Source: a virus. From it: a stretch of DNA of 64,000 nucleotides. Made by a program: the position numbers and the translations under genes. The stretch lies in IMG/VR virus record IMGVR_UViG_3300028840_003497, positions 62,001 through 126,000 of that record. One strand, 5' to 3'. This document shows, one piece after another, positions 4,536 to 62,080 of the stretch (position 1 is its first letter; the number at the start of each line of letters is the position of its first letter). The notes below the pieces were generated by a model. The model was not told where the DNA came from, did no database searches, and saw nothing but the letters and a program-made list of their open reading frames with translations.

Positions 4536-5348
4536 CTACAAGTACTTCTTCAGCATCTCCACAACTATCTTGGAAACATTGAGGACGTACTTTTTGTCAT
4601 TCTTTTCTAGGGCCTGGAGCGCGTCCCGATGATCCTTGAGAAAGTCCCCCCGAGCATCATCAATGAAGAACCTGATATACTCCCCCAACTGTGACGGTTT
4701 ATCAATCTCCCCCTCCTTGGAAAATATGCCCTGCAGCCTCTCATCGGTCAGGTAGGACTCGAACTCATCACGGACAACCTGGACCTCGGGAGCAATTTCC
4801 ACCGGAGGTTTCTTTGCCTTGGCTTGCTGTTTTTCCTTAAAGTCCTCGCCCTTCTTCTTGATCATAAAGACCGACCCCTGCTCGGTGGAGAACATCTTGT
4901 GCAGTGGCTTAATCACCACGCCTTCGCACAGGTTCTTCCCAGCCTGAACATCACTTGGCCCCTCCCGAGAATCAAAAGCAATGTCAAACTCCATCGCCTC
5001 CTCCAAACCATCGACCGTCGCCATGATTGGAACAAGAAACTTCTCCAACCCCAGAATTTTCATGATCTCGATCATGTCGCCTGATGGCTGCATCTCCTCG
5101 TCCTTGCAGAGATCATAAAACAGGATCCTTTTCTCGGGACCGTAATCAACACCCTTCTGGACACCAGCACCGAACAACTCCCCGTACAAATGGTAGGTCG
5201 CATCGTCGAAGACCGCCTTGTCACTCCAGGTCCTAATCAAATTCTTGTAATCATCTCTTCCCAGGATGCCACGGGACGGGATTACGCTGCTCCTAATCCC
5301 CTCCCATTTATAGATGGAGTCTTTAATTGCTTCTGTTTCTTTTGACAT
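4536..5348 (-). CDS. Rnl2-like RNA ligase, covalent nucleotidyltransferase fold
   Basis: Several blocks of the RNA ligase/capping-enzyme superfamily are visible in order: a candidate motif I KWEG (lysine 14), GELFG (56-60), a RILFYDL strand (74-80), EGVVIKP (142-148, motif IV) and MIKKKG (162-167, motif V). These enzymes are adenylated on the motif I lysine and seal RNA nicks, as T4 Rnl2 does in tRNA repair. Motif I lies unusually close to the N-terminus, and at 270 aa the protein is shorter than T4 Rnl2 (about 330 aa), so activity is uncertain. Confidence 0.55.
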   Translation of the reverse strand: MSKETEAIKDSIYKWEGIRSSVIPSRGILGRDDYKNLIRTWSDKAVFDDATYHLYGELFGAGVQKGVDYGPEKRILFYDLCKDEEMQPSGDMIEIMKILGLEKFLVPIMATVDGLEEAMEFDIAFDSREGPSDVQAGKNLCEGVVIKPLHKMFSTEQGSVFMIKKKGEDFKEKQQAKAKKPPVEIAPEVQVVRDEFESYLTDERLQGIFSKEGEIDKPSQLGEYIRFFIDDARGDFLKDHRDALQALEKNDKKYVLNVSKIVVEMLKKYL

Positions 5349-9532: not shown

Positions 9533-11902
9533 CTATTTCTCGGGTTTCCTCGTCTTCGGCTTGCCGGTGTCCTTGTCCTGATCTAATGCAAGATCCACCC
9601 ACTGAGCACTGTCCCCCTCGCGGATCGGGCTCACGCTTGTCAGATCAAAATACCTCTGGCAAATAACGTCACAGTATCTGGGATCCATCTCAGATCCAAA
9701 ACCGCGCCTCCCTGTGCGCTCTGCCGCAATGATCGTCGTGCCACTACCCATAAATGAATCCAGCACAATATCGTCCCGCAAGGAGCTGTTTTTGATCGCC
9801 CGCTCGACCAACTCGATGGGCTTCATGGTATTATGGGACATGCCAATCGCTGTCTGAAACGTATGACATCCTTCAACAACCAAGTTGCACACAACACCAT
9901 TATATGGAGATTTCTCGACGCTCATGATACGCCGCGTGAAACACTCCACACCATCGTATTCGAAGAAATGATACGCTGGACACTTGCTCCGCTGAGGCGA
10001 AACAAAAACAACATAGCAAGGCAGCGTCTCTTTAAAAATCCTATCACCAATTCCAGCCCCAGGAGGAGCATTGTGAATATTTGTCGTCGTCCTGAAACCG
10101 AGAGACTCTGCCAACATAGCCACCTGAGCCGCAAGGAAAGGAGACACTGTCTTGCACACACGGTAGTGCCGTATATTGCTCCCGTCTCCAGCCATATACC
10201 CATCCAACATCGCAGATCGAGTCTCCTCCGACCACTGGTCAAAGCGAGGGAACATCTTATTTGCTGCCCCACGCCCGCACATTTTCTCAAGACGATCCCC
10301 CCAATCACTGTCGAAGAAAACAACATTCATCCCATTGCCGTGATTGTCATACACGGAGGCCTTCGCCTTAAATGCCAACTCCAATAACTTCACCAGATGA
10401 CCCTCTTTGACATGCAACGAAAAACGAGGAAACTGCTTCTTCCCGTTCCCAGCCTTTAGGAATGATCCTTCTGCAGCAAATAATCCTATGGCCCAAGCTT
10501 CATCAACAGAAGGGCTACGCCCAACACCGCACTCTAGTTTCGGCGTCAAAACATAGTCTCCAGCCAGAAGATCCGAAGCCTCAACAAATCTCGGATCATC
10601 ATACTGCCCACTCCCTACACGCCTACGAATCAGGAATGGGTGATTATGTGTTGCCGAAACCGACAAGGAAGACCCAGAAACCGAGATATGAAAAATATCC
10701 TCTTTATACTCGTGCACCGTCACATTCTTTACAGAATGAAACTTGCCATCGTGACCAAACACAGAATCACCAATGCCAACGTCAGATATCGGCTGATATC
10801 CCTTGTCTGTTACAATCATGCTATCCGGAGAGAGACACGGATGTAAATCGTTCTTTCTCGGCTTGTCGTAATTCCAAACGTCCGCCTGATCCCGATCCCC
10901 ACACCAGTGTCGATCCGTAGCTCCCTCTCTCCATCCGTACAAGATCGGCTCGTACTGCCGCTGATAGTCCGAGCGACCTATCGTAAATGTATTCTTGGCC
11001 CAGATGATGAACGTGGACCAGTGTCCACCGGCCTCTCGGAACGTTCCCTGCAAAGTATCCAGCTCCGACGAAGACATGCAAATATAGATCGCGCCTTCAC
11101 AGACCGGCAACATCGCCTGCATAGTCTTCAGCAAGAACGGACGGAATTCCTCACCGAGATCGTCATTCTCGATCTCCCGATGATTCCCGCGCAGTTTATC
11201 CTTCATTGTCTTGCCATAGGCCACGTTATACGGAGGATCCGTGAAAATCATCTTGGCAGCCTCTCCATCCATAACCTTGTCAATCACCGCGCGGTCCGTC
11301 GAGTCTCCACAAATCAACCTGTGAGGCCCCATCTTCCAAACGTCTCCCAGGCTCGTGATAGCAGGGACTGTGTCCGGGTCCGGAGGATCTGGCGGCTCTG
11401 CGCCCCCCTCACCCTGGCCGTCCTTGTACTCGGAGATTAACCATTCGACCTCCTCGCGCTCGAACCCGATCCCAGCAATGGCCTCGTCACCCTCTTTCAA
11501 CATGGCTTGCAAGTGAACCGCCAAAGCATCGTCGTCCCACTCCGACACAATCTCACCTAAGCGGTTGTCAGAGATATTGAACCCGGCAGCCGTCACGTTG
11601 TCATCATCGGCCCAGATCACCGGAATATGCATCAGACCAATGTCCTGACAAGCATACAAACGCTGATGCCCCGCCTCAATAATCCCGGTCCTTTTGTTAA
11701 CCAAAATAGGCCAACGAACTCCAAACCTCTGAATCCCGGCAACCAGCGTCTCCAACGACACAGTCTTCCGGGGATTCGACGGATCAGGCTTCACTTCGCC
11801 AATCGGCTTAAGCAACGGAATCAAATCCGGAAGCACTTCAATGTCACGCTTTGCACCCTTCAAATAAAAACGCTCTCCGCGCTTATCATACGGTTCACCC
11901 AT
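9533..11902 (-). CDS. ParB-like/DNA N6- or N4-methyltransferase fusion, intein-interrupted
   Basis: Residues about 30-115 form a ParB/Srx-like nuclease-fold domain with the characteristic E-A-G-H-Q-R (76-81). A linker leads to a beta-class amino-methyltransferase: DPPYN (222-226) is the catalytic motif and DSFMGSGTT, after the intein, is the S-adenosylmethionine loop. ParB-methyltransferase fusions occur in phages and mobile elements and often protect DNA from restriction. The exteins total 453 aa. The intein splits the HP-TMKP region. A sigma70-like promoter lies about 85 bases upstream. Confidence 0.85.
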   Translation of the reverse strand: MGEPYDKRGERFYLKGAKRDIEVLPDLIPLLKPIGEVKPDPSNPRKTVSLETLVAGIQRFGVRWPILVNKRTGIIEAGHQRLYACQDIGLMHIPVIWADDDNVTAAGFNISDNRLGEIVSEWDDDALAVHLQAMLKEGDEAIAGIGFEREEVEWLISEYKDGQGEGGAEPPDPPDPDTVPAITSLGDVWKMGPHRLICGDSTDRAVIDKVMDGEAAKMIFTDPPYNVAYGKTMKDKLRGNHREIENDDLGEEFRPFLLKTMQAMLPVCEGAIYICMSSSELDTLQGTFREAGGHWSTFIIWAKNTFTIGRSDYQRQYEPILYGWREGATDRHWCGDRDQADVWNYDKPRKNDLHPCLSPDSMIVTDKGYQPISDVGIGDSVFGHDGKFHSVKNVTVHEYKEDIFHISVSGSSLSVSATHNHPFLIRRRVGSGQYDDPRFVEASDLLAGDYVLTPKLECGVGRSPSVDEAWAIGLFAAEGSFLKAGNGKKQFPRFSLHVKEGHLVKLLELAFKAKASVYDNHGNGMNVVFFDSDWGDRLEKMCGRGAANKMFPRFDQWSEETRSAMLDGYMAGDGSNIRHYRVCKTVSPFLAAQVAMLAESLGFRTTTNIHNAPPGAGIGDRIFKETLPCYVVFVSPQRSKCPAYHFFEYDGVECFTRRIMSVEKSPYNGVVCNLVVEGCHTFQTAIGMSHNTMKPIELVERAIKNSSLRDDIVLDSFMGSGTTIIAAERTGRRGFGSEMDPRYCDVICQRYFDLTSVSPIREGDSAQWVDLALDQDKDTGKPKTRKPEK
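9830..10837 (-). mobile_element. Intein in the DNA methyltransferase (LAGLIDADG type)
   Basis: 336 residues from Cys1 (CLSPDSMIVTD) to the terminal His-Asn (GMSHN), with Thr as the first C-extein residue. The N-splicing block B is visible as SATHNHPFL. Two LAGLIDADG-like helices (IGLFAAEGSF and LDGYMAGDGSN) mark a homing endonuclease domain that looks intact. It sits within the conserved HPTMKP region. Removing it restores a normal methyltransferase. Confidence 0.9.
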
Positions 11903-37432: not shown

Positions 37433-38026
37433 TTAAAACCCCACATCTCCATCGGTGCCGAGGATCATCGATTTGTACTCTCCGAACCTCTTGCCAACCT
37501 CATCGACCAACGTCTCCAGCTGCTCCTCAAAGTCAGATCCGTCGGAAAGCCTCCTGGACGCAGAAACGTCCACTTTATTAGAATCCTTCCCCTTCTTTTT
37601 GAATGTTCCACCGTAGTCAAGCCAAATAGCCATCTTAACGCCTAGACCATTTAGGTTGATCGGACTGAACTCGCGGTCCTCTCCTCTTATGAAAGCTTCC
37701 TCCCGATCGAGCACTTCCTCTATGGCAGCCCGCATCCGAGAATAGGCTGCGTCGCGCTCCTCTTGAGATGGTTCACCCTCGATCCCCACTTTGATCCCAA
37801 TTGCAAACCGAGCAAATTCGAAATTCTTCAATGAAATAGTCCGTCCAGCATGAACCATCAAATTCTCTGTATCCTCGTCTGTCTGGATCGCAGGCTTCCC
37901 ATCACTCGTCACATCCTCTTTTACAAGTCTTGCCGGGTTTTTCCCAACAGTGTGAACAAGACCATCTTTACCCTCAACGATTTGTTTTCCCATCTCAGCC
38001 CCCCGCGACATCTTGCCGCGTTTCAT
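37433..38026 (-). CDS. Hypothetical protein, 197 aa
   Basis: Soluble mixed protein. The stretch ENLMVHAGRTISLKNFEFARF followed by an amphipathic helix suggests a small-molecule or nucleic-acid fold resembling the R3H/DUF family seen in some phages, but the match is not firm. A nearby promoter puts +1 only a few bases before the ATG at 38026, so an internal ATG at 37993 with GGGGGG upstream may be the real start. Confidence 0.5.
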   Translation of the reverse strand: MKRGKMSRGAEMGKQIVEGKDGLVHTVGKNPARLVKEDVTSDGKPAIQTDEDTENLMVHAGRTISLKNFEFARFAIGIKVGIEGEPSQEERDAAYSRMRAAIEEVLDREEAFIRGEDREFSPINLNGLGVKMAIWLDYGGTFKKKGKDSNKVDVSASRRLSDGSDFEEQLETLVDEVGKRFGEYKSMILGTDGDVGF

Positions 38027-38032
38027 TTAGAC

Positions 38033-38061
38033 ACATTACGCACTAAAGCGCGTTTAGTCAA
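38033..38061 (-). promoter_or_regulatory. Sigma70-type promoter for 37433-38026
   Basis: TTGACT at 38061-38056, 17-base spacer, TAATGT at 38038-38033, with AAACGCG following the -35. Confidence 0.6.
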
Positions 38062-38579
38062 CAAGAATAAACGCCTACTTCCATCCAACCATCCTCTATT
38101 TCTTTTCTGAAGGACTCGTCCCGCAGTGCAACCTTGCCGCGTCGAGAAATGGCCATTTGCATGATCAATATCATTGAATCCGTAAAAAGCCGATCTCCGC
38201 GTTTCGATCTGATCGGCGTCATAGGAAGCAACCCAACCTTCGTCCAGTAGTTGATAGTGTCCACAGACCTGTTCAACCGCTGAGCCGTCACCGTCACAGT
38301 GTACGCCTGGCACATCTCCCCGTTGACCATCACATCCACGGGCTTACGAGGCCCTGTGGGGCGCGCTGGAGGCAACTTGCCTGCCGCACGCAGCTTCTCC
38401 CGCTCTTCCTTCTTCCTCCGCCTGTAATCCCGAGCCGCCGCCTTGGCTTTTTCTCGGTAACTCGGGTCAGTGTGGTATTTGTCGTGCCGCTTCTTAGAAA
38501 GCTCCGCCTTGTGATCCAGGTAATAGTCCTGAAAATACGCTTTTCGGCCATCTTTTGTATTATCGTCAGATCCCAGCAT
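38058..38579 (-). CDS. MerR-like DNA-binding protein, 173 aa
   Basis: A basic helical N-terminus (YREKAKAAARDYRRRKK) precedes a winged-helix segment (VTAQRLNRSVDTINYWTKV then TDSMILIMQMAI) typical of MerR-family regulators, which bind and distort operators. It is just upstream of the gene at 37433 and downstream of the helicase gene. GAGAGGGAATTC precedes the ATG. Confidence 0.65.
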   Translation of the reverse strand: MLGSDDNTKDGRKAYFQDYYLDHKAELSKKRHDKYHTDPSYREKAKAAARDYRRRKKEEREKLRAAGKLPPARPTGPRKPVDVMVNGEMCQAYTVTVTAQRLNRSVDTINYWTKVGLLPMTPIRSKRGDRLFTDSMILIMQMAISRRGKVALRDESFRKEIEDGWMEVGVYSC

Positions 38580-38637
38580 GAATTCCCTCTCGCAGAAGAA
38601 TCACTTTAAACCCTACTCTGCATTTTCACAACATTAT

Positions 38638-41600
38638 TCAAAGCGTCCCCAGTTTCTTATAAAAACGCATCCTCCTCCGGTACTTTGGATTCAATTGAAC
38701 AATCATTTCGTCAACTACATCAACCACAATCGGCTGTGGTTTCTGCTTGCATTTCCCAGCACGCCAGGGACATGCCACCTCGCACTTTCCATCCTGCGGA
38801 AAGCACCACCTCTGAATACGACCCACTATTTGCTCAACATCGCTAATCGGAGTCGCCATCACCAGAACATCGATCGACGGAATGTCGAGGCCCTCCTCAC
38901 AATTATGCACAACAAAACCATCGCATAAAAAGTTAGACTCGCCCTCCATGGTAAAATCATAAACGTCCCTAGATCTAACACTTTCTACAGACACAACACG
39001 AACCCATAAAGCATCAGAATTAGACCACTCAAGCAACATTTCGTTATTGGTTGCATCTGCTACGGATTTCAACAGACTGCGATGGACACCGTTGCGATGA
39101 ATACTTCCACCCACCGGAACAGCCACGCTTCCTATGATATCTTTCTTTCGAAGACCCTGAGAACGCAAAACCCTCATCGCATGAATCCACTGCTCCTCTG
39201 GAATACGCAACCCAACTCCGTCTTCTGCTCTGTCAAGTTTGCACAGATCTGAAAGCATCTTCCTCTTTCGAGGCATCAAATAAGGACCAACAAAATCCAT
39301 CATTTTTTTAATCCAAAACATGCCAGCAACCTTAACAGTCCAATATCTCCTCCTTCTGACAGAATTAGAACGCTTCGCAGATCTAACAAAAGAAATAATC
39401 CCGTGCCCAAGTAACATATGTTGAACCTGATACGCCAATTTCCTACTTGAACTACAGTGAGAAATCTCAAGTTTTTTACGACCAACATTTCCATCGGTAT
39501 CTATAAGGGCCGCAATTAATGCACCGGCACTTTCTCGGTCACAAAACAGCAATCTATCCGACAACTTCTTCTCCCACGCCCGACATCCGTCCAAGCCATG
39601 ACTTTCGGCCAATTTGCGAAACTTAGACTTAACCCCACCACCATTCTTGCCACCCAAAACTACACGATATTTCCCAGGCTCCTTGTCCTTTTCGCATAAC
39701 GCTGCATTATATTCAGAAAGCAAAAACGACACATTATCCACAATATCTTTATCTATATTAAAAAAAGCAGCCTGACCACTAGCCAACTGAGAAGTGTTCC
39801 CATCGCCTATAAAATAACCCATCAATGCAGCCTCATTCACCTCCACATCACTTTTTCCGTCCAGTTGAGCATTGCCCGGAATCATAAGCCAATCCCCAAC
39901 CACAATCTCATCAGATCTCACCCACCCTCGCTGCGACATAACACGATGATCTCCGCTCACAGATAAAGACATCACAGATCTATTATCACCACCTCTCCCG
40001 CATGATATTTTAAGAACATCTTTCACCCCCGTTTTCCATGCCTTAACAATCTTATTCGGAACAAAATCTCCAACACCCTCCCTGTAAGATAACAGCCTAA
40101 CACCCTCCTCCCCGCACAAATCCCTTACGAAGAGAGGTTCGCCAGTATCGGCATCGACAACAATACTATCGCCATCAACACACATCTGTTTTGTAGCAAA
40201 AATAACATTCGCAGATTCGGCATGCGCCAACTCTTCGGACGTCCTGTTTTTGAGCTTCATCTCTCCTTTACGATGCAGAATATTCCCACGCTTCCCACGC
40301 TTCGTTTCCTTCCACACCTCGCCACTGAACCACTGCCCGGTGTAGAAATCGATCCTCGGAACGAAGTCCAAATCGAGCCCGAACAGAATGCCGCCAAGCT
40401 GCTCGGCCATCTCCTTGAGGTGTTCCAGCCGCTCACTGACGACCATGAGCTTCCGACCGGCCTGGACCGCCTTCACCATGTCGTCCACGATGTGCCGCGT
40501 CCTGAATTTGTCGGCAGCGAGCTGGTTAACGATCTGGCCACTGTTTAAATTGTCGATCGATACTTGGTACTTGCCACGGGAGATCCTCTTAAGAGTTGAA
40601 TCCGTGATAACCCTCCGCAGCTTCGGACGCATCATCTTCGTATGTACCGAGTATGTGATCGGAGATATGTGCTTAAAGAAAACGTCCTGCGAGCCGTCCT
40701 TGCGACGTGGAGTCGCCGTAACACCCAATCTCCATGCTGCCTTGAACCGAGGAATGATACCAGCCCACGATCCAGCCCCGACGCGGTGGCAATTATGAAC
40801 GACCGCCCCTGTTTCAAGGATGTAAGAAGGATGCCCAGAAACATTCAGGTTGTAAACACGGACTCGATCTCCCTCAGTACAGATGGCAAATCGCTCAAGA
40901 TCCTCTCGTTTGAGAACCTCAACACTTTCCACCCTAATCCCATTAAGCATCGACCTTTTTTTGCATCCTGCTCCCGACGACTGAGAAGTTTGTGTGACCG
41001 ACCGTCCACCTCCACAGCCACCATCCTCTTCCTGTTCGCCAAGTCCACTTTGTAGGACGCGGGATATCTGTCTGGATTCACGCGCTTGACCATCGTTCTG
41101 ATCGCCACCTCTGGCTTCCACCCTTTCCCGAGAGCATCCAAGAGCATCAATTGAGGAACGGTCATTCCGGTCCCGTTTCCACCCCTCACCGGAGGACGAT
41201 GCCCCATGCTCCTCAAAGAACGAGACACCTTCCTTCTCACCTTTTCTAATGACATCGGATTCGACACTTTCATCCGACGCGAAGCTTCCTCTCGCACCTG
41301 CGGATTCTTCTTGTGCCATTTTAATACAGCGTCGGAAAGCTTCTTCGTAAAAAGGCTGGAATTCTCCGACATCCATTTCCGCTGACAGGATGTCGAACAA
41401 AATCTTGTCCTCTTCTGCTTCGTCTCCACCACCCCGCAGTACTCGCACATCGCCTGCCGCTTGCGCCTCGCCGCTCCAGAACACTTCCTCGAACAATACT
41501 TCCGACCGGCCCTCACAGAATTCGGCTTCCTGCACATCTGACACGACTGAGTTTTTGCACGTCCCATATCTCCGCATCATACCAATGCACTCTGAGTGCG

Positions 41601-42531
41601 TCAATACAGAACACCCAGCAAGATCCTTGGCATGGACCCACCCATTGTTCGTCAAAAATGGATGTTCTGCTGTGCAAATTACCTCTGTACTATCAGCAAA
41701 CGAAACCACCCGTAAATCTGACACATCGATAAGCCTGCTCCCGACGCTTTTAACACGCCCGTGACCAACAGCATTCAGCACCACATCGCCATCACGAATT
41801 TCCTCGATGGGAACTTCTTCATCTGGCGTAAGAACATGAGTCCCCTTCACAAAACATTCGTCCGAGACTATTGTACCAAAGTGAGAGTACATCGATTCTG
41901 GATACTTGAACCCATCATCACGAGATAGAGACTGTAACAACGCGATAACGAAGTCCGGCGGATCCCCATTGCTCTCCAGCTCATCGAACTCGCAGCGCGA
42001 CTGCTTGATGATCCCCACACGCGCGTCCGGCATCATCCCGAGAATTCGATTCTTCCACTGCTGAACCAAGAAGTCTTTATGAACAAGGATCAGCGTTCTC
42101 CGCCCCATTCTCCGAGCAAACTCTAAAGCCATTATTGTCTTACCCGCACCAGGAGGAGCCTGAAGAAGAGCGCCGCCCCACTTCCTGTTCTCCAGGGCAA
42201 GTGCTAGTTCATCTAGAGCATCCGCCTGCTCAGCAAACGGACCCTCGGCTTTGAAATTCGTCTGAAGATCTTGCATGGGCTTGCCGTATGAGACGTCCAG
42301 AACCTCCTCATGATCCCCAGAACGTCGCTCCAGATAGTAGTATCTCGGAACACCGATGAGACCCCTTTCGTCGTCCTCCTCGAACAAAAAAATGGGTTTC
42401 GGATCCTCCTTGGTCTGGATGTCCGTCGTCTTCCGTGGCTGAATCGTCAGTTCCTGCTTGATATTGTCAACCTGATACTTGTTCAACTCATCAAGCTGGA
42501 GCCAAGCCATACCAGAAATAATAACCTTCAA
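38638..42531 (-). CDS. UvsW/DEAD-type SF2 helicase with two inteins
   Basis: Exteins total 515 aa. Visible motifs are Q-like PPGAGKT (Walker A, 126-132), TATP (motif III-like), DE-CHR (motif II split by intein 1 after residue 225) and IVGRIQRW (motif VI). The C-terminal half has CEVACPW and CKQK cysteines that may bind zinc. T4 UvsW-like enzymes remodel branched DNA and RNA-DNA hybrids. It sits among SSB, DnaB and DnaC genes. A stem-loop lies just upstream. Confidence 0.85.
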   Translation of the reverse strand: MKVIISGMAWLQLDELNKYQVDNIKQELTIQPRKTTDIQTKEDPKPIFLFEEDDERGLIGVPRYYYLERRSGDHEEVLDVSYGKPMQDLQTNFKAEGPFAEQADALDELALALENRKWGGALLQAPPGAGKTIMALEFARRMGRRTLILVHKDFLVQQWKNRILGMMPDARVGIIKQSRCEFDELESNGDPPDFVIALLQSLSRDDGFKYPESMYSHFGTIVSDECFVKGTHVLTPDEEVPIEEIRDGDVVLNAVGHGRVKSVGSRLIDVSDLRVVSFADSTEVICTAEHPFLTNNGWVHAKDLAGCSVLTHSECIGMMRRYGTCKNSVVSDVQEAEFCEGRSEVLFEEVFWSGEAQAAGDVRVLRGGGDEAEEDKILFDILSAEMDVGEFQPFYEEAFRRCIKMAQEESAGARGSFASDESVESDVIRKGEKEGVSFFEEHGASSSGEGWKRDRNDRSSIDALGCSRERVEARGGDQNDGQARESRQISRVLQSGLGEQEEDGGCGGGRSVTQTSQSSGAGCKKRSMLNGIRVESVEVLKREDLERFAICTEGDRVRVYNLNVSGHPSYILETGAVVHNCHRVGAGSWAGIIPRFKAAWRLGVTATPRRKDGSQDVFFKHISPITYSVHTKMMRPKLRRVITDSTLKRISRGKYQVSIDNLNSGQIVNQLAADKFRTRHIVDDMVKAVQAGRKLMVVSERLEHLKEMAEQLGGILFGLDLDFVPRIDFYTGQWFSGEVWKETKRGKRGNILHRKGEMKLKNRTSEELAHAESANVIFATKQMCVDGDSIVVDADTGEPLFVRDLCGEEGVRLLSYREGVGDFVPNKIVKAWKTGVKDVLKISCGRGGDNRSVMSLSVSGDHRVMSQRGWVRSDEIVVGDWLMIPGNAQLDGKSDVEVNEAALMGYFIGDGNTSQLASGQAAFFNIDKDIVDNVSFLLSEYNAALCEKDKEPGKYRVVLGGKNGGGVKSKFRKLAESHGLDGCRAWEKKLSDRLLFCDRESAGALIAALIDTDGNVGRKKLEISHCSSSRKLAYQVQHMLLGHGIISFVRSAKRSNSVRRRRYWTVKVAGMFWIKKMMDFVGPYLMPRKRKMLSDLCKLDRAEDGVGLRIPEEQWIHAMRVLRSQGLRKKDIIGSVAVPVGGSIHRNGVHRSLLKSVADATNNEMLLEWSNSDALWVRVVSVESVRSRDVYDFTMEGESNFLCDGFVVHNCEEGLDIPSIDVLVMATPISDVEQIVGRIQRWCFPQDGKCEVACPWRAGKCKQKPQPIVVDVVDEMIVQLNPKYRRRMRFYKKLGTL
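38902..40182 (-). mobile_element. Intein 2 of the helicase (LAGLIDADG type)
   Basis: 427 residues from CVDGDSIVVDA to FVVHN with Cys as the next extein residue. Two endonuclease helices, LMGYFIGDGNTS and LIAALIDTDGNVG, show a canonical LAGLIDADG pair. It splits the TKQM-CEEGLDIP region of the second RecA-like domain. Confidence 0.9.
40792..41856 (-). mobile_element. Intein 1 of the helicase, whose linker overlaps a homing endonuclease gene
   Basis: 355 residues from CFVKGTHVLTPDEE to AVVHN, with Cys next in the extein. Block B is CTAEHPFLT. The last 50 residues (VYNLNVSGHPSYILETGAVVHN) form the C-splicing region. The middle (about 97-305) is low-complexity and charged with no in-frame endonuclease motif. 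That stretch is exactly the region overlapped by the nested gene at 40845-41567. The intein frame stays open throughout. Confidence 0.88.
40845..41567 (-). CDS. Nested Vsr-like (EDxHD-type) homing endonuclease with zinc fingers, out of frame in intein 1
   Basis: A 240-aa gene in the +1 frame of the intein. The N-terminus has two zinc-finger-like units (CQMCRKPNSVRAGRKYCSRKC and CEYCGVV...CSTSCQ). A helical middle follows, then YKVDLANRKRMVAVEVDGRSH and KGRCLMGLGWKVLRFSNERI, the EVDG and WKVLRF pattern of Vsr/EDxHD homing nucleases. GGAGAT just before the ATG may allow translation. It would cut the intein-free site. Confidence in coding is high from its composition. Confidence 0.85.
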   Translation of the reverse strand: MGRAKTQSCQMCRKPNSVRAGRKYCSRKCSGAARRKRQAMCEYCGVVETKQKRTRFCSTSCQRKWMSENSSLFTKKLSDAVLKWHKKNPQVREEASRRMKVSNPMSLEKVRRKVSRSLRSMGHRPPVRGGNGTGMTVPQLMLLDALGKGWKPEVAIRTMVKRVNPDRYPASYKVDLANRKRMVAVEVDGRSHKLLSRREQDAKKGRCLMGLGWKVLRFSNERILSDLPSVLREIESVFTT

Positions 42532-42559
42532 CCTTCAACCTCCAACAAACCGGACCGCG

Positions 42560-42579
42560 CAGTGACCAAAAGGCCACTG
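42560..42579 (-). promoter_or_regulatory. Stem-loop upstream of the helicase gene
   Basis: CAGTGGCC TTTT GGTCACTG forms an 8-bp hairpin with one wobble pair. No T run follows, so a terminator is unlikely. A translation or mRNA-stability role is possible. Tandem GGTTGAA units follow before the start codon. Confidence 0.45.
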
Positions 42580-42594
42580 TCGATCCTTCATTTT

Positions 42595-43482
42595 CTAAAA
42601 TGGAAGATCTCCGTCATCCTGATTGTTTCCAGGACTGAATCTTCCACTACTATCCTGACCACCACCGTAACCGGCCCCCTCGGACCGAGCACCACCACCT
42701 TTTTGACCACTACCGCCACCCATTCCGACGATCTTTGCCATCGTCTCGTAGGAAAGCGGTCTACAAATGTCGTGCCAGTTGCTAATGGGTTCCACATTCA
42801 AGGCATCCGGATCCGCGCCGTGCTGCTGCAGGAATTTAACATAATCCTCTGGAGCAACCCGATCAATGTACTCCCAGGTCTCACCGATACCGGCCTCTTT
42901 ATCGCCGCTTCGGCTCGTATCCCAAACCGTACCCTCCAGACTCTTGCCACGTCGCTCTGCCTGCCACAACAGTTTCTTAAGGACGCCAGGACTCTTCTTG
43001 CTACCCTTCTTCGCGCCAAGAACAACCCGAGGGAAAGCGTCCTCGTGGATCGTGCCTTCCTTGTCCTCCCAAGTTCGATGATGGAGCTTGATACTTCCAT
43101 CATCCAGATACTCAACCTGACCCATGTCAATACCACTGAACATTCCAATGAACGAAGGCCAGTCGTCTCCACCCTCTTTCATGCAAAGCGGGCATCCTCG
43201 ATCATCAATGTTGTTCTTTGCCAAGCATAACGCGTTCCAGTACCCACAACCACGCCACTTGTATAGCCCGTGCTCGTAGTAAGAGAATGGAGATCCATCC
43301 AAAAACAAAAACCGATGTGTAACCGGCTTGCCAGGGAATAGTGGATTTTCCGAAGCGTCCTGCATCCTGAAGCGAAAACGGTAAAGTCGTTCCTCTTCCG
43401 AGAACTTGCCTCCGCCTTCTCCATCTCCGGTGTCTTCGTCGGGAGGAAGATCCCAACCTCTCTGTCCATAATTGCCAATCAT
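42595..43482 (-). CDS. Single-stranded DNA-binding protein, T4 gp32-like
   Basis: Start chosen at MIGNYGQRGW after GGAGAGAGAC. The acidic C-terminal tail DDGDLPF is the partner-binding tail typical of SSB. CGYWNALCLAKNNIDDRGCPLC gives a zinc site like that in gp32. The middle is rich in strands and aromatics. It protects single-stranded DNA and recruits replication and recombination proteins. Its promoter lies about 85 bases upstream. Confidence 0.8.
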   Translation of the reverse strand: MIGNYGQRGWDLPPDEDTGDGEGGGKFSEEERLYRFRFRMQDASENPLFPGKPVTHRFLFLDGSPFSYYEHGLYKWRGCGYWNALCLAKNNIDDRGCPLCMKEGGDDWPSFIGMFSGIDMGQVEYLDDGSIKLHHRTWEDKEGTIHEDAFPRVVLGAKKGSKKSPGVLKKLLWQAERRGKSLEGTVWDTSRSGDKEAGIGETWEYIDRVAPEDYVKFLQQHGADPDALNVEPISNWHDICRPLSYETMAKIVGMGGGSGQKGGGARSEGAGYGGGQDSSGRFSPGNNQDDGDLPF

Positions 43483-43566
43483 GTCTCTCTCCTTCTGTGC
43501 TCTTAGCACTAATTAAAGTCTTACAGATCTCTCTGAGATCAGGCGACTAACCTCCTGCGACTCGCG

Positions 43567-43595
43567 ATAATGCACCATCCGTTGCCGTTTGTCAA
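43567..43595 (-). promoter_or_regulatory. Sigma70-type promoter for the SSB gene
   Basis: TTGACA at 43595-43590, 17-base spacer, CATTAT at 43572-43567, with AACGG after the -35. It overlaps the end of the dnaB gene upstream. Confidence 0.6.
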
Positions 43596-43600
43596 CAGGA

Positions 43601-46204
43601 TCAGAACGGCACTTCCTCACTATCCTCGTACTCATCCGTGTCGTCAGGGATCTCGTCATATTTCATCGAGTCGAAATCCCAGTCAGACAAAACCACATCT
43701 TTCGAAATCTGTCCTCGTCGGAGCTTGAGAGCTTTGAATTTCAAAACCTTGTCATCCCTGTCATCCTTCGACTGCTCCAACGCAAAGACAGCATGAGCAT
43801 CCTGGCCAATCTCGTCAGCAAGCGCAATCGTTCCCAGACGAGCACCTCCCCCTTTTTTCTCGCTCAACTCCGCTGTTCTGTTCTGTTGGGCAAATCCACA
43901 ACAAGCAAATCCAAGCCGTTTAGCAGCACTCTTCATCCACTCCAGAGCACCAATTGCTCTCTCTCGCCTGTCGCCACTGATTTTCAGATCATAGATAGAG
44001 TCTACGGCGACCATATCTGGCTGACACGCACGGATAGCTGCTTCGATGCCTTTTGGTGAAAGATCATCATCAGAATCCATGATCCACAGGTTCTTCAACG
44101 AGCGACTTTTTACAATAGTATTCTCAAGACTTGGAATAGCGAAATCCGATAACTGCCCATGAATAAGATCCTTGTAACTGACGTTCGCTTCGACCACGAA
44201 GAACCTCTCAGCAATCTCCTCTTTGCTCATCTCCGGAGACACGATGAGCGTACGATAACCTTCGGACCATGCGTGCCGGGCGGCAATAACCGCCACGAAT
44301 GTGTTGTGAACAACCATATCATTTGCCACGAACGCATGCCCATCCATAACCGTTAAATCGAACACCCTTTGGACACCGTCATATTTTATCGATTCAACTC
44401 TATCCCAATGATTAACTGTCAAATGTCTCAAGTGTTCTGCGTCAAACGCATCCAGGAAAGCTTCAAATATTCTTCTACTTACAGTTTTTCGTCTATACAA
44501 CTTATTAACGCTGATTCGAGTTGTCATACCTAAGACTGACGACATCGAATCATACCTAGCAACTCTTGGAGCATCAGGAAAACTATTCACTATTCTAAGC
44601 AACTCTTCCTTCAATACAGGTGTCACCGGTATATTGTCAATATTGGGATTAGTAGCATTCTCAAGCAACCCAACCTTGCTGCTTTTACCACCGACTATCG
44701 GGATATTGTTTTTGAACGCATCGTGGGATGTCGAGTAGATCCTGTACACCCAAGAATCAAACATCTCCCCGTTTAGCCTGACTGCTTTATACCGCACTCT
44801 CCCCTGTATCCCGAAGCGCAAGAACAATCGCTGCAACTGATCAATAAGCGTTTTAGATGCCAATCCCACTTCAGCAGTACAATGATCACGTCTGCCATTC
44901 TTGCCCTTGACAAGTGGAAATGACCCATCACAACTCCAAAATGCCCCGAGAAATTTCGCCAATGACTCATTATCATACTGAAATACTCTGTCTGGAATAG
45001 TCTTATTTTTAGACAATGATCTATCACACCCCCAACTATCCCACTTTTCCCAAAAGCTACGACCATTAATCCTGTAACGACCATCATCCTTTCCACGCGT
45101 CATCGGAACAAGTTCACTACCATATATTCGACAAAACCTTTGCACATGACCTATAATTACATTGTCAGCTTTTGTGAAGGTTGGTAGATCTTGCGTCACC
45201 CCACCATCTGCCAACATCATACCTATCAGCATGGATTCTTCATCTCTTACACTAATAGATTCAGTTGGCTCTGGAATCAATCCAGCAGACTCAACATAAT
45301 CTCCAACAACAAGTTCATCGGTTCTTTTCCATCCGTCAACAGTCATCATCGGATGCTCTGGCGTTTGAGACATCTCACGCCCACTATACAATCCAACCCT
45401 TAAACATTCCTTTGTTCCCATATCCAACCACGCATCTGGCGTAACAGGAACAATAGAGCCATCTGATTTTCTGGTAAGCACACAATCTTTGTCCTTTACA
45501 ATCTGTCCAATCGTCTTATACTTCCCCGTAGTTGAAATGTAGGATAATGTATCCATGTGTAGGCATTTGCCAACTCCGGGGCGGGCCACAAACATGGTCA
45601 GTGTCTTTGGCCACATCCCAGCTGTCATATGATCCAGTGTCGGCCATGGAAGCGGCACCCCACGATACCCTCCGGCAACCTTCTTGTACATATCCATTAC
45701 GCCGTCACCAAGAGCGGACATGGATTTTGGCATGCGCGTGCGCGCTAAATATTGGGAAGCCTCCACAATGGCCGTGACACCATTGGAAATCTCTTCCGGA
45801 TTCTCCTTTGTAAACGCGCTGGAAACCACATCCTGAGACACGTAGATGACATGACGAATCGCAGCAGCCTCACGAACAATTCCAGCGTAATGATCAACAT
45901 TAGCCACCGTGGCAACTGCATCAGTAAGATTCGCCAGAGCTATCCCCCCCCCGATCTTCTCTAGGTCGCCATTCTTTTTCAGGCGCTCCCCGAGAGTAAC
46001 GTGATCGACAGGCATGCCATCTGCATCCAAGGATGTCATCGCCTTGAAGATTCTGCGATGTGCTTCTACATAAAAATCCGCCTGCGTAATAACACCCTCG
46101 ATAACCCGAAGTGAATTATTATCCAGCAATATGGACCCCAGAACAGACACCTCGGCTTCATAATTGTAAGGCGGCACTCTCCCTCCAACATCAACCTCTT
46201 TCAA
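43601..46204 (-). CDS. dnaB: DnaB-type replicative helicase, intein-interrupted
   Basis: Exteins total 446 aa, normal for DnaB. The N-terminal domain (YNYEAEVSVLGSILLD) is typical. ARPGVGK-T is the Walker A, split by the intein after residue 213. LIVSPEMSKEEIAERFF, Walker B MVAVDSIYDLK and the C-terminal KALKLRRGQ blocks follow. It unwinds DNA at the phage fork and is loaded by the DnaC-like protein encoded just upstream. Confidence 0.93.
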   Translation of the reverse strand: MKEVDVGGRVPPYNYEAEVSVLGSILLDNNSLRVIEGVITQADFYVEAHRRIFKAMTSLDADGMPVDHVTLGERLKKNGDLEKIGGGIALANLTDAVATVANVDHYAGIVREAAAIRHVIYVSQDVVSSAFTKENPEEISNGVTAIVEASQYLARTRMPKSMSALGDGVMDMYKKVAGGYRGVPLPWPTLDHMTAGMWPKTLTMFVARPGVGKCLHMDTLSYISTTGKYKTIGQIVKDKDCVLTRKSDGSIVPVTPDAWLDMGTKECLRVGLYSGREMSQTPEHPMMTVDGWKRTDELVVGDYVESAGLIPEPTESISVRDEESMLIGMMLADGGVTQDLPTFTKADNVIIGHVQRFCRIYGSELVPMTRGKDDGRYRINGRSFWEKWDSWGCDRSLSKNKTIPDRVFQYDNESLAKFLGAFWSCDGSFPLVKGKNGRRDHCTAEVGLASKTLIDQLQRLFLRFGIQGRVRYKAVRLNGEMFDSWVYRIYSTSHDAFKNNIPIVGGKSSKVGLLENATNPNIDNIPVTPVLKEELLRIVNSFPDAPRVARYDSMSSVLGMTTRISVNKLYRRKTVSRRIFEAFLDAFDAEHLRHLTVNHWDRVESIKYDGVQRVFDLTVMDGHAFVANDMVVHNTFVAVIAARHAWSEGYRTLIVSPEMSKEEIAERFFVVEANVSYKDLIHGQLSDFAIPSLENTIVKSRSLKNLWIMDSDDDLSPKGIEAAIRACQPDMVAVDSIYDLKISGDRRERAIGALEWMKSAAKRLGFACCGFAQQNRTAELSEKKGGGARLGTIALADEIGQDAHAVFALEQSKDDRDDKVLKFKALKLRRGQISKDVVLSDWDFDSMKYDEIPDDTDEYEDSEEVPF
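44303..45565 (-). mobile_element. Intein in DnaB (LAGLIDADG type)
   Basis: 421 residues, CLHMDTLSYIST to MVVHN, followed by Thr. The endonuclease helices are MLIGMMLADGGV and KFLGAFWSCDGSF. Insertion in the P-loop of DnaB is a common intein site in bacteria and phages. Confidence 0.9.
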
Positions 46205-46231
46205 TATTCTACCTCCACTAATTTTGGAATT

Positions 46232-46882
46232 TCATATGTTACGAATTGCCTGCCGAGCTATCTCTTCGCGCTTATCCTCCCCGTACACATGGATAGCCAT
46301 AACATGCTCCTTGAGAGAATGTAGTGTGGACGGCTTGAGAATATCCGACATGGCTTCGCCCTTACCCTTGAGAACCGCATTGGTCGTGATGATCGTCACC
46401 AACTGATTCGCATTTCTCGTACGAATAAGTTCATCAAACAGACGCTCCCCGAAACCAGTTCGGTCCAGTGTGCCCTTGCCAAGATCGTCCAGCACAAGAA
46501 CATCAACCTTCATCGCACGATCCCAGTACGTATCATCTTCGTCAAAGTGATCCTTGCTAATTACAAGACTTTTCAGTGAAGCCGCCTCAATAAACATTAC
46601 CGTGCTGAATCTCCGACGGAACTCCTTGGCGATTATCGCCGCCATCGAAGTCTTACCAGTACCATTCGCTCCCCACAGAAGCATGCCGAGTCCCTGCTCG
46701 CGCATATCCTCCATTTTACGAATGTAACTCTTTAAGATATCGCGCGGGCTCTTCGACTCGCGCTCATCGGCAATATCCGAAACGCCATCACAGTCGACGT
46801 TCCAGTACCGCTTCGGAAGCCGCATCCGAACAAGATCATCCTTCGTTAATTTTCTACGTCTCAGTGTCACAACCTGACCCAT
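46232..46882 (-). CDS. DnaC/IstB-like helicase loader, AAA+ ATPase
   Basis: Start set at MGQVVTLRRRK; the longer frame lies in the preceding gene. GANGTGKTS is Walker A, VLVLDDLGK Walker B, and TIITTNA a sensor region. The protein loads DnaB onto DNA in an ATP-dependent manner. At 216 aa it is short but within range for DnaC-like loaders. Confidence 0.85.
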   Translation of the reverse strand: MGQVVTLRRRKLTKDDLVRMRLPKRYWNVDCDGVSDIADERESKSPRDILKSYIRKMEDMREQGLGMLLWGANGTGKTSMAAIIAKEFRRRFSTVMFIEAASLKSLVISKDHFDEDDTYWDRAMKVDVLVLDDLGKGTLDRTGFGERLFDELIRTRNANQLVTIITTNAVLKGKGEAMSDILKPSTLHSLKEHVMAIHVYGEDKREEIARQAIRNI

Positions 46883-61405: not shown

Positions 61406-62080
61406 CTTCTTTCTGGCAACAAAAACGAGCGTCTTCCCGTTGTTGAACTTGTCATACTGCACCTCTTCAAAATGCTCATGAAGCGTCAACATAAAACTCT
61501 GCGGAGGTATCCATTGGAATGTCGACTTGTGAGTATCAGCACCACACTTCTGCAGATGGACTATCTTGTCGCCAACCATCCACACTTCCTCAGAGTACCT
61601 GCGCCCATCTATCTGATACTCGTACCGGCTCGGAGCATCCCCTGGCCTCTGAATGAAGGTGTTAAAAACGAACGATCCAGTGTCTTTCAGCCCCTTAGAT
61701 ATCCTCTCAACAGCATCCTCATTCCACCAGTAGTTCACCGCCTGCTGACAAATCGCCAAATCAAACTCGCCGGTCCCTAGAAAAAAATTGGTCTTACTGC
61801 AGCGCGTGAGATCGGAAACAACACACCGGTCAGGAGCGTTCTCCATTTTCTTGGCCCGGCTCATCATTTTTCTTGAGATATCAACAGCAAGGACAAACTT
61901 TGCCCCTAGCTCTTTCGCTCGCACGCTCGCACGCAACCCTCCAGCACACAAATCCACCATTATCTTCCCACTTATTGGACCTGCAGCTAAAAGTAAATCG
62001 TCTACCGGCCTCTTGAGGAACCGAGCATACATTCGATCATACTCATCCCCACACATTTTAGAAAAATCGTGTACTCCCAT
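61388..62080 (-). CDS. Class I SAM-dependent methyltransferase
   Basis: MVDLCAGGLRASVRA is the glycine-rich motif I that binds S-adenosylmethionine, and FVLAVDISRKMM the acidic motif II. FDLAICQQAVNYWW is motif IV-like. The substrate is not evident; such enzymes methylate small molecules, RNA or proteins. It is directly downstream of the CoaB-like gene. Confidence 0.75.
   Translation of the reverse strand: MGVHDFSKMCGDEYDRMYARFLKRPVDDLLLAAGPISGKIMVDLCAGGLRASVRAKELGAKFVLAVDISRKMMSRAKKMENAPDRCVVSDLTRCSKTNFFLGTGEFDLAICQQAVNYWWNEDAVERISKGLKDTGSFVFNTFIQRPGDAPSRYEYQIDGRRYSEEVWMVGDKIVHLQKCGADTHKSTFQWIPPQSFMLTLHEHFEEVQYDKFNNGKTLVFVARKKLTNAD

Follow-up and report, generated by a model that had tools for sequence, protein, structure and literature searches.

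A helicase intein that probably shares its DNA with a homing endonuclease gene in a second reading frame, and its relatives in phages and bacteria

Inteins are usually thought to carry an endonuclease domain in their own reading frame, to lack an endonuclease, or to be split around it. Fractured genes, as Dassa et al. reportedly described them in 2009, consist of split inteins whose halves are separated by a free-standing endonuclease gene, and about half of these loci are said to contain a nuclease of a Vsr-related family. The element analysed here is intein 1 of a DNA helicase gene on a viral stretch of 64,000 nucleotides (nt), positions 62,001 to 126,000 of the IMG/VR record IMGVR_UViG_3300028840_003497, hereafter called the window. 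We are largely confident that it is a mobile intein consisting of two genes that overlap, namely a mini-intein that splices in cis and a separate homing endonuclease read in the +1 frame of the same DNA.

The likeness to the fractured genes lies in the phage inteins involved, and the family to which the element belongs itself includes three such loci (L107, L334 and L338), in which the host open reading frame (ORF) is broken and the intein halves lie on separate ORFs. In the window, by contrast, the host ORF is unbroken, the intein is continuous and by its sequence marks cis-splicing, and the nuclease gene, read in another frame, overlaps it without breaking it. With the canonical LAGLIDADG inteins, represented by intein 2 of the same helicase and by the DnaB intein of the same phage, the element has in common a splicing domain and the presumed logic of homing, but in these the endonuclease is a same-frame domain of the intein, freed by splicing. 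The helicase gene, with a second-frame endonuclease in intein 1 and an in-frame LAGLIDADG endonuclease in intein 2, offers an internal contrast between the two strategies. The EDxHD nuclease family has as its exemplar I-Bth0305I (PDB 3r3p; PMC3943268), which resembles the nested enzyme in its catalytic fold and in its tie to a self-splicing element; however, it is grouped with the homing endonucleases of mobile group I introns (PMC3943268), whereas the partner here is an intein and the nested enzyme bears two N-terminal Cys4 zinc fingers.

A further precedent is the ShiLan insertion. The passages of PMC11855218 drawn on here describe an insertion with an HNH gene out of frame, in which neither an intein nor another splicing domain was found; the host frame stays open across it, and it was taken to be retained in the protein. 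The second-frame endonuclease, the open host frame and a disjunct distribution suggesting homing are shared with the present element. The same passages contain no codon-level selection test for ShiLan-type insertions and cite, for overlapping frames, Gorbalenya 1998 and a 2025 preprint on non-canonical actinobacteriophage inteins. The nuclease is of the HNH type there and of the EDxHD type here, and only here is an intein present, the window combining a DUF559-type nuclease with an intact intein. An earlier sequence-only reading of the window, which knew of no described case, must be tempered to the extent that the out-of-frame HNH gene of these intein-less insertions has been published. No description of a continuous intein with a second-frame endonuclease was found in the literature surveyed, and the 2025 preprint (bioRxiv 10.1101/2025.01.02.630785) may partly anticipate it. 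The element works like a mobile intein and both its parts come from known families; it is their arrangement that appears to be novel. The features of the locus, with positions counted along the window, are the following.

38638-42531, minus strand: DNA helicase gene of the DEAD/DECH type with ResIII domain and two inteins (ORF of 1297 amino acids (aa); Pfam ResIII 8.9e-18; two Intein_splicing regions)
40792-41856, minus strand: intein 1, 355 aa, from C1 to HN355 (Pfam Hint_2 and Intein_splicing; AlphaFold 2 (AF2) model; Foldseek match to the gp41-1 intein, 4e-6)
41611-41856, minus strand: IntN, the N-terminal splicing region of the intein (family hidden Markov model (HMM), E 1.6e-29)
40792-40935, minus strand: IntC, the C-terminal splicing region of the intein (family HMM, E 8e-20)
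40845-41567, minus strand: putative nested EDxHD/DUF559 homing endonuclease gene, 240 aa, in the +1 frame relative to the intein (ORF, Pfam, AF2, Foldseek, census of homologues)
41577-41579, minus strand: TGA stop in the frame of the nested gene, 9 nt before its ATG (sequence)
41570-41573, minus strand: candidate Shine-Dalgarno (SD) sequence GGAG, weak, 2 nt from the ATG (sequence; enrichment across the family)
41481-41543, minus strand: zinc finger 1, C9 C12 C25 C29, residues 9-29 of the nested protein (sequence)
41385-41447, minus strand: zinc finger 2, C41 C44 C57 C61, residues 41-61 (sequence; zf-FCS_1 below threshold)
40851-41159, minus strand: C-terminal nuclease domain (fold and profile matches, conserved residues)
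38902-40182, minus strand: intein 2, 427 aa, a conventional in-frame LAGLIDADG intein in this helicase gene (Pfam and sequence)

Intein 1 interrupts the Walker B (DECH) motif of the helicase between DE and CH, and the predicted extein join, VSDE to CHRVG, falls in the middle of the DECH box. Its sequence marks (C1 FVKGTHVLT, block B TAEHPFLT, the end YILETGAVVHN and then C+1) supply all the residues expected of a cis-splicing intein, that is, Cys or Ser at position 1 (C1), TxxH in block B (TAEH), a terminal HN (HN355) and Cys, Ser or Thr at +1 (C+1); across the family, inteins mostly start with C1 and end in HNC, HNS or SNC. In this frame Pfam recognizes Hint_2 and Intein_splicing, the latter under its cut-off in the window member yet found in 26 of 27 relatives. 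Structure prediction by AF2, from input alignments with the rows of the annotated phage records left out, folds residues 1-90 and about 310-355 as a HINT domain (pLDDT about 97), and in Foldseek these splicing regions match the gp41-1 and DnaB inteins. The non-splicing remainder is a linker of about 205 residues, predicted to be disordered, with pLDDT <50 over most of residues 110-305, and Pfam finds no endonuclease domain in the intein's own frame. The sequence-only reading had pictured normal splicing ends and a mini-intein with an odd linker, whose roughly 200 middle residues lack an endonuclease motif: the ends are complete, the splicing domain is intact and the lack of an endonuclease holds, while the size is refined to a 355-aa intein with the linker given above.

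The other frame of this DNA encodes a folded protein. The nested ORF (41567-40845), which that reading had placed inside the intein and credited with zinc fingers and a Vsr/EDxHD-type nuclease, lies entirely within intein 1, its end being overlapped by the first ~30 codons of IntC. Both attributes are borne out. Two copies of a CxxC...CxxxC pattern form the Cys4 fingers, and all four Cys residues of the second are invariant in 51 homologues, as are D175, E186, D188, H192, D201 and K204 of the nuclease domain. Pfam assigns DUF559 at 1.8e-12, above its cut-off and matched in 51 of 51 homologues, in addition to sub-threshold REase_MTES_1575 and zf-FCS_1. The AF2 model has a mean pLDDT of 92.3; its best fold matches in the PDB are the catalytic domain of I-Bth0305I (3r3p), the DUF559 protein NGO0050 (3hrl) and Vsr (1vsr), and a profile search with hmmsearch returns 3hrl at 1.5e-13 and 3r3p at 0.0024. 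The nested protein thus has a Vsr/I-Bth0305I-like fold together with the conserved acidic and His residues of the EDxHD enzymes.

The same frame relation recurs widely. Searching annotated phages by tblastn gave 40 records with 31-39% identity to the nested nuclease, and in all eight phage records examined (Vibrio, Pseudomonas, Corynebacterium) the homologue lies in the same +1 relation within one open helicase ORF, while in none of these eight inspected regions is it annotated as a gene of its own. Isolate genomes with this relation are those of CP-T1, phi673, MR14 and Vibrio lentus phages. From phages, IMG/VR and bacterial genomes, 199 non-redundant homologues were gathered, distant DUF559 matches (L003-L006 and most of L119-L152) being excluded as outside the family. 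The nuclease is nested in the +1 frame of an open intein frame in 185 of the 199 and otherwise placed in 14; nesting in the third frame occurs in none of them. The median nuclease identity is 36% across the family. The splicing ends and an insertion site between DE and C or S are present in nearly all members, and most intein-borne copies interrupt Walker B of an SF2 helicase, an SNF2-like protein or a terminase. Since 185 of 199 relatives keep it, the double-coded design is an old and stable way of building a mobile intein, not an accident.

Selection in the two frames can be told apart by stop codons and by the phase of substitutions. For the window copy, the nuclease protein predicts 13-19 stops in the intein frame, where none occurs (log10 P = -6.7 to -10.6). 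Computed analytically, the expectation per locus is 9.9 stops under host codon usage and 11.1 under base composition; the 166 loci tested contain no intein-frame stop against 1649-1843 expected, whereas free-standing nuclease copies contain 5-30 stops in the corresponding frame. The avoidance is visible codon by codon: nuclease codons ending in T never precede AA, AG or GA codons (0 of 6440) and make up 31% before other codons, while in seven stop-bearing copies the figures are 37.6% and 42.9%. Among 28 close pairs, some of which share a sequence and are not all independent, substitutions fall on intein codon positions 1/2/3 in proportions of.27/.20/.53 in the exteins,.30/.21/.50 in the splicing regions and.53/.25/.22 in the overlap. 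Intein position 1 is nuclease position 3, and the switch of phase at the overlap therefore reflects purifying selection on the nuclease, not on the linker, which drifts. Thus the search for other such inteins and the comparison of codon positions in the two frames, both proposed with the sequence-only reading, have turned out in its favor; a second frame without selection, which it had named as fatal to the idea, is contradicted by these data.

Evidence for mobility comes from Vibrio phages, since the empty-site relatives of the window's own helicase are too distant (~30% identity) for homing to be examined there. Phage K391 carries a full 1068-nt element, phage K389 a 450-nt (150-aa) mini-intein without nuclease at that same helicase site, and phage 141O35-1 an empty site; the extein flanks of the last two are 94.4% and 95.0% identical to those of K391, respectively. 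A related splicing domain at this site therefore dispenses with the linker. In addition, the elements of phages K391 and 1.088.O share 94.4% identity between flanks of only 76.1% identity, which indicates transfer of the element into a diverged gene. Empty, mini and full alleles together with this transfer link the nested gene to a mobile, site-specific element. Mini-inteins of 143-150 aa also occur in the Vibrio phage helicases L307, L310 and L311, at the site between DE and CHH that the full element uses, and in L310 and L311 a further intein apparently ends near the P-loop (...GDFTVTHN, followed by TVVA). Over the family, distances between homing endonuclease genes correlate with those between inteins (Mantel r 0.62), but each also follows extein distance (0.70 and 0.57), so that the joint descent supported by these sequences is not isolated from host relatedness.

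These observations suggest how the two readings of one DNA could cooperate. The helicase frame would yield a cis-splicing mini-intein, two splicing regions joined by a disordered, unconstrained linker, and the +1 frame, most likely through internal initiation, a zinc-finger homing endonuclease of the EDxHD type as a product of its own. This enzyme would cut intein-less Walker B sites (DE followed by C or S) in helicase, SNF2-like or terminase genes; repair of the cut would copy the whole element in, and the intein would splice out and hide the insertion. Selection holds the nuclease sequence and additionally keeps stops out of the intein frame.

How the nuclease is made is the point on which an alternative is worth weighing. 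Ribosomes translating the intein could shift into the +1 frame and produce it as an IntN-nuclease fusion, and such a fusion is evidently tolerated, since loci L358 and L359 encode the N-extein, IntN and the nuclease in one frame. We nevertheless regard frameshifting as unlikely: the window has an in-frame TGA 9 nt before the ATG, an ATG is present in 126 of 131 start zones of homologues, SD matches of at least 5 nt precede 20% of candidate ATGs against 5% of internal ATGs, and in seven Vibrio and Pseudomonas copies a GAGG stands 6 or 9 nt before the ATG, within the DEV codons of the intein. Internal initiation is thus the likely route. There is next to no probability that the arrangement stems from a sequencing or assembly error, with the nuclease truly in the intein frame, or from a frame open by chance. 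An error is a general possibility in any metagenomic contig, and the sequence-only reading had itself allowed for a frameshift of this kind, but the relation returns in isolate genomes and 185 lineages, and the stops expected of a chance frame are missing; both ideas were rejected on these grounds. A dead nuclease relic, with the intein frame as the sole functional one, is hardly more credible. Homing genes often decay once fixed, yet more than half of the overlap substitutions lie at nuclease third positions, the Cys and catalytic residues are unchanged in 51 divergent copies and the transfer between diverged phages is recent; the substitution phase and the stop statistics led to its rejection.

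The nested protein might instead be a DNA-binding regulator or another kind of nuclease, given that DUF559 proteins have varied or unknown functions and that zinc fingers could bind DNA for regulation. This is quite improbable for a protein whose closest fold is that of a homing endonuclease, which is bound to one kind of insertion site, has full and empty alleles and is transferred together with its intein, and some free-standing copies of which adjoin apparently uninterrupted target genes. Similarly improbable is the idea that the linker has its own function, such as splicing control, which would explain the open frame of nearly all intein-borne copies: the K389 allele has no linker, and the linker residues drift at intein position 1 and are predicted to be disordered. 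Its near-invariant LQ (268-269) is probably a shadow of the YK that is conserved in the nuclease frame and that it overlaps. A group I or II intron with a homing endonuclease gene was rejected for lack of any Rfam match at gathering threshold in 38000-46500, and a defence-system nuclease for lack of a PADLOC match; a plasmid search gave one weak partial match. Several points weigh against the two-gene mobile intein that we favor. Protein splicing, DNA cleavage and internal initiation are inferred. With a spacing of just 2 nt between SD candidate and ATG, the window copy has a less certain start site than its relatives. The Foldseek E-values of the nuclease are modest (5e-3), although profile and Pfam matches agree with them. 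The nested class is defined by the absence of stops, so that the weight rests on only 14 of 199 homologues falling outside it, and the nested share of 93% is not an unbiased rate because the census was seeded from nuclease homologues and took the best 80 per scan.

The 14 exceptions comprise fractured split inteins, in-frame fusions of IntN and nuclease, one intein with a TGA, one copy with a possible IntC remnant (L068), and, for the remainder, free-standing nuclease genes. In L107, L334 and L338 IntN stops where the nuclease starts and the IntC ORF opens inside the nuclease end; both ORFs share sequence with the nuclease gene, their original register is preserved, and 23-30 stops lie between them. 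In L358 (1975-3444) and L359 (1876-3312), the carriers of the fusion, a second ORF that overlaps the first encodes IntC and the C-extein, which is unusual for a split intein. In L002 the intein holds a nested nuclease and a single in-frame TGA in the intein frame (4991-4993), for which recent inactivation, readthrough or the start of splitting are candidate explanations. In L051 (3355-3996) and L314 (2950-3594), the latter with an apparent frameshift of the contig at this point, a free-standing homologue stands directly upstream of a helicase gene showing no intein, which makes them candidates for intronless homing. Reconstruction on a midpoint-rooted FastTree phylogeny, whose rooting is weak, makes nesting the ancestral state and requires 10 changes.

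Elsewhere in the window, a DnaB-like replicative helicase (46204-43601) contains an in-frame LAGLIDADG intein (44303-45565, minus strand) directly after its P-loop GVGK. An N6_N4 methylase ORF (9536-11902, minus strand), with a sub-threshold ParB_N match, probably contains an intein, as judged from sub-threshold splicing and LAGLIDADG matches; it encloses a 134-aa second-frame ORF (10326-9925) without a Pfam domain, which is probably due to chance.

A second-frame endonuclease is a fourth way of arranging an intein; deeply diverged copies in phages and bacterial genomes retain it, mainly at Walker B of P-loop NTPases. The eight phage regions show that endonuclease genes of this kind are missed by annotation, and the family is a source of inteins tolerating roughly 200-residue linkers and of uncharacterised site-specific nucleases. 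Pairing a folded enzyme with an expendable linker, this long +1 overlap is a natural test case for the evolution of overlapping genes. A possible origin of split inteins is also suggested: as stops build up in the intein frame, the start and stop that the nuclease already has of its own would part the halves, and L107, L334 and L338, with both halves in their original register, may be snapshots of this step from nested to split. Tentatively, and with somewhat more doubt than assurance, the overprinted inteins may be regarded as a class of mobile inteins in its own right, ancient, for the most part unannotated and made of two genes in two frames, and as a source of natural split inteins.

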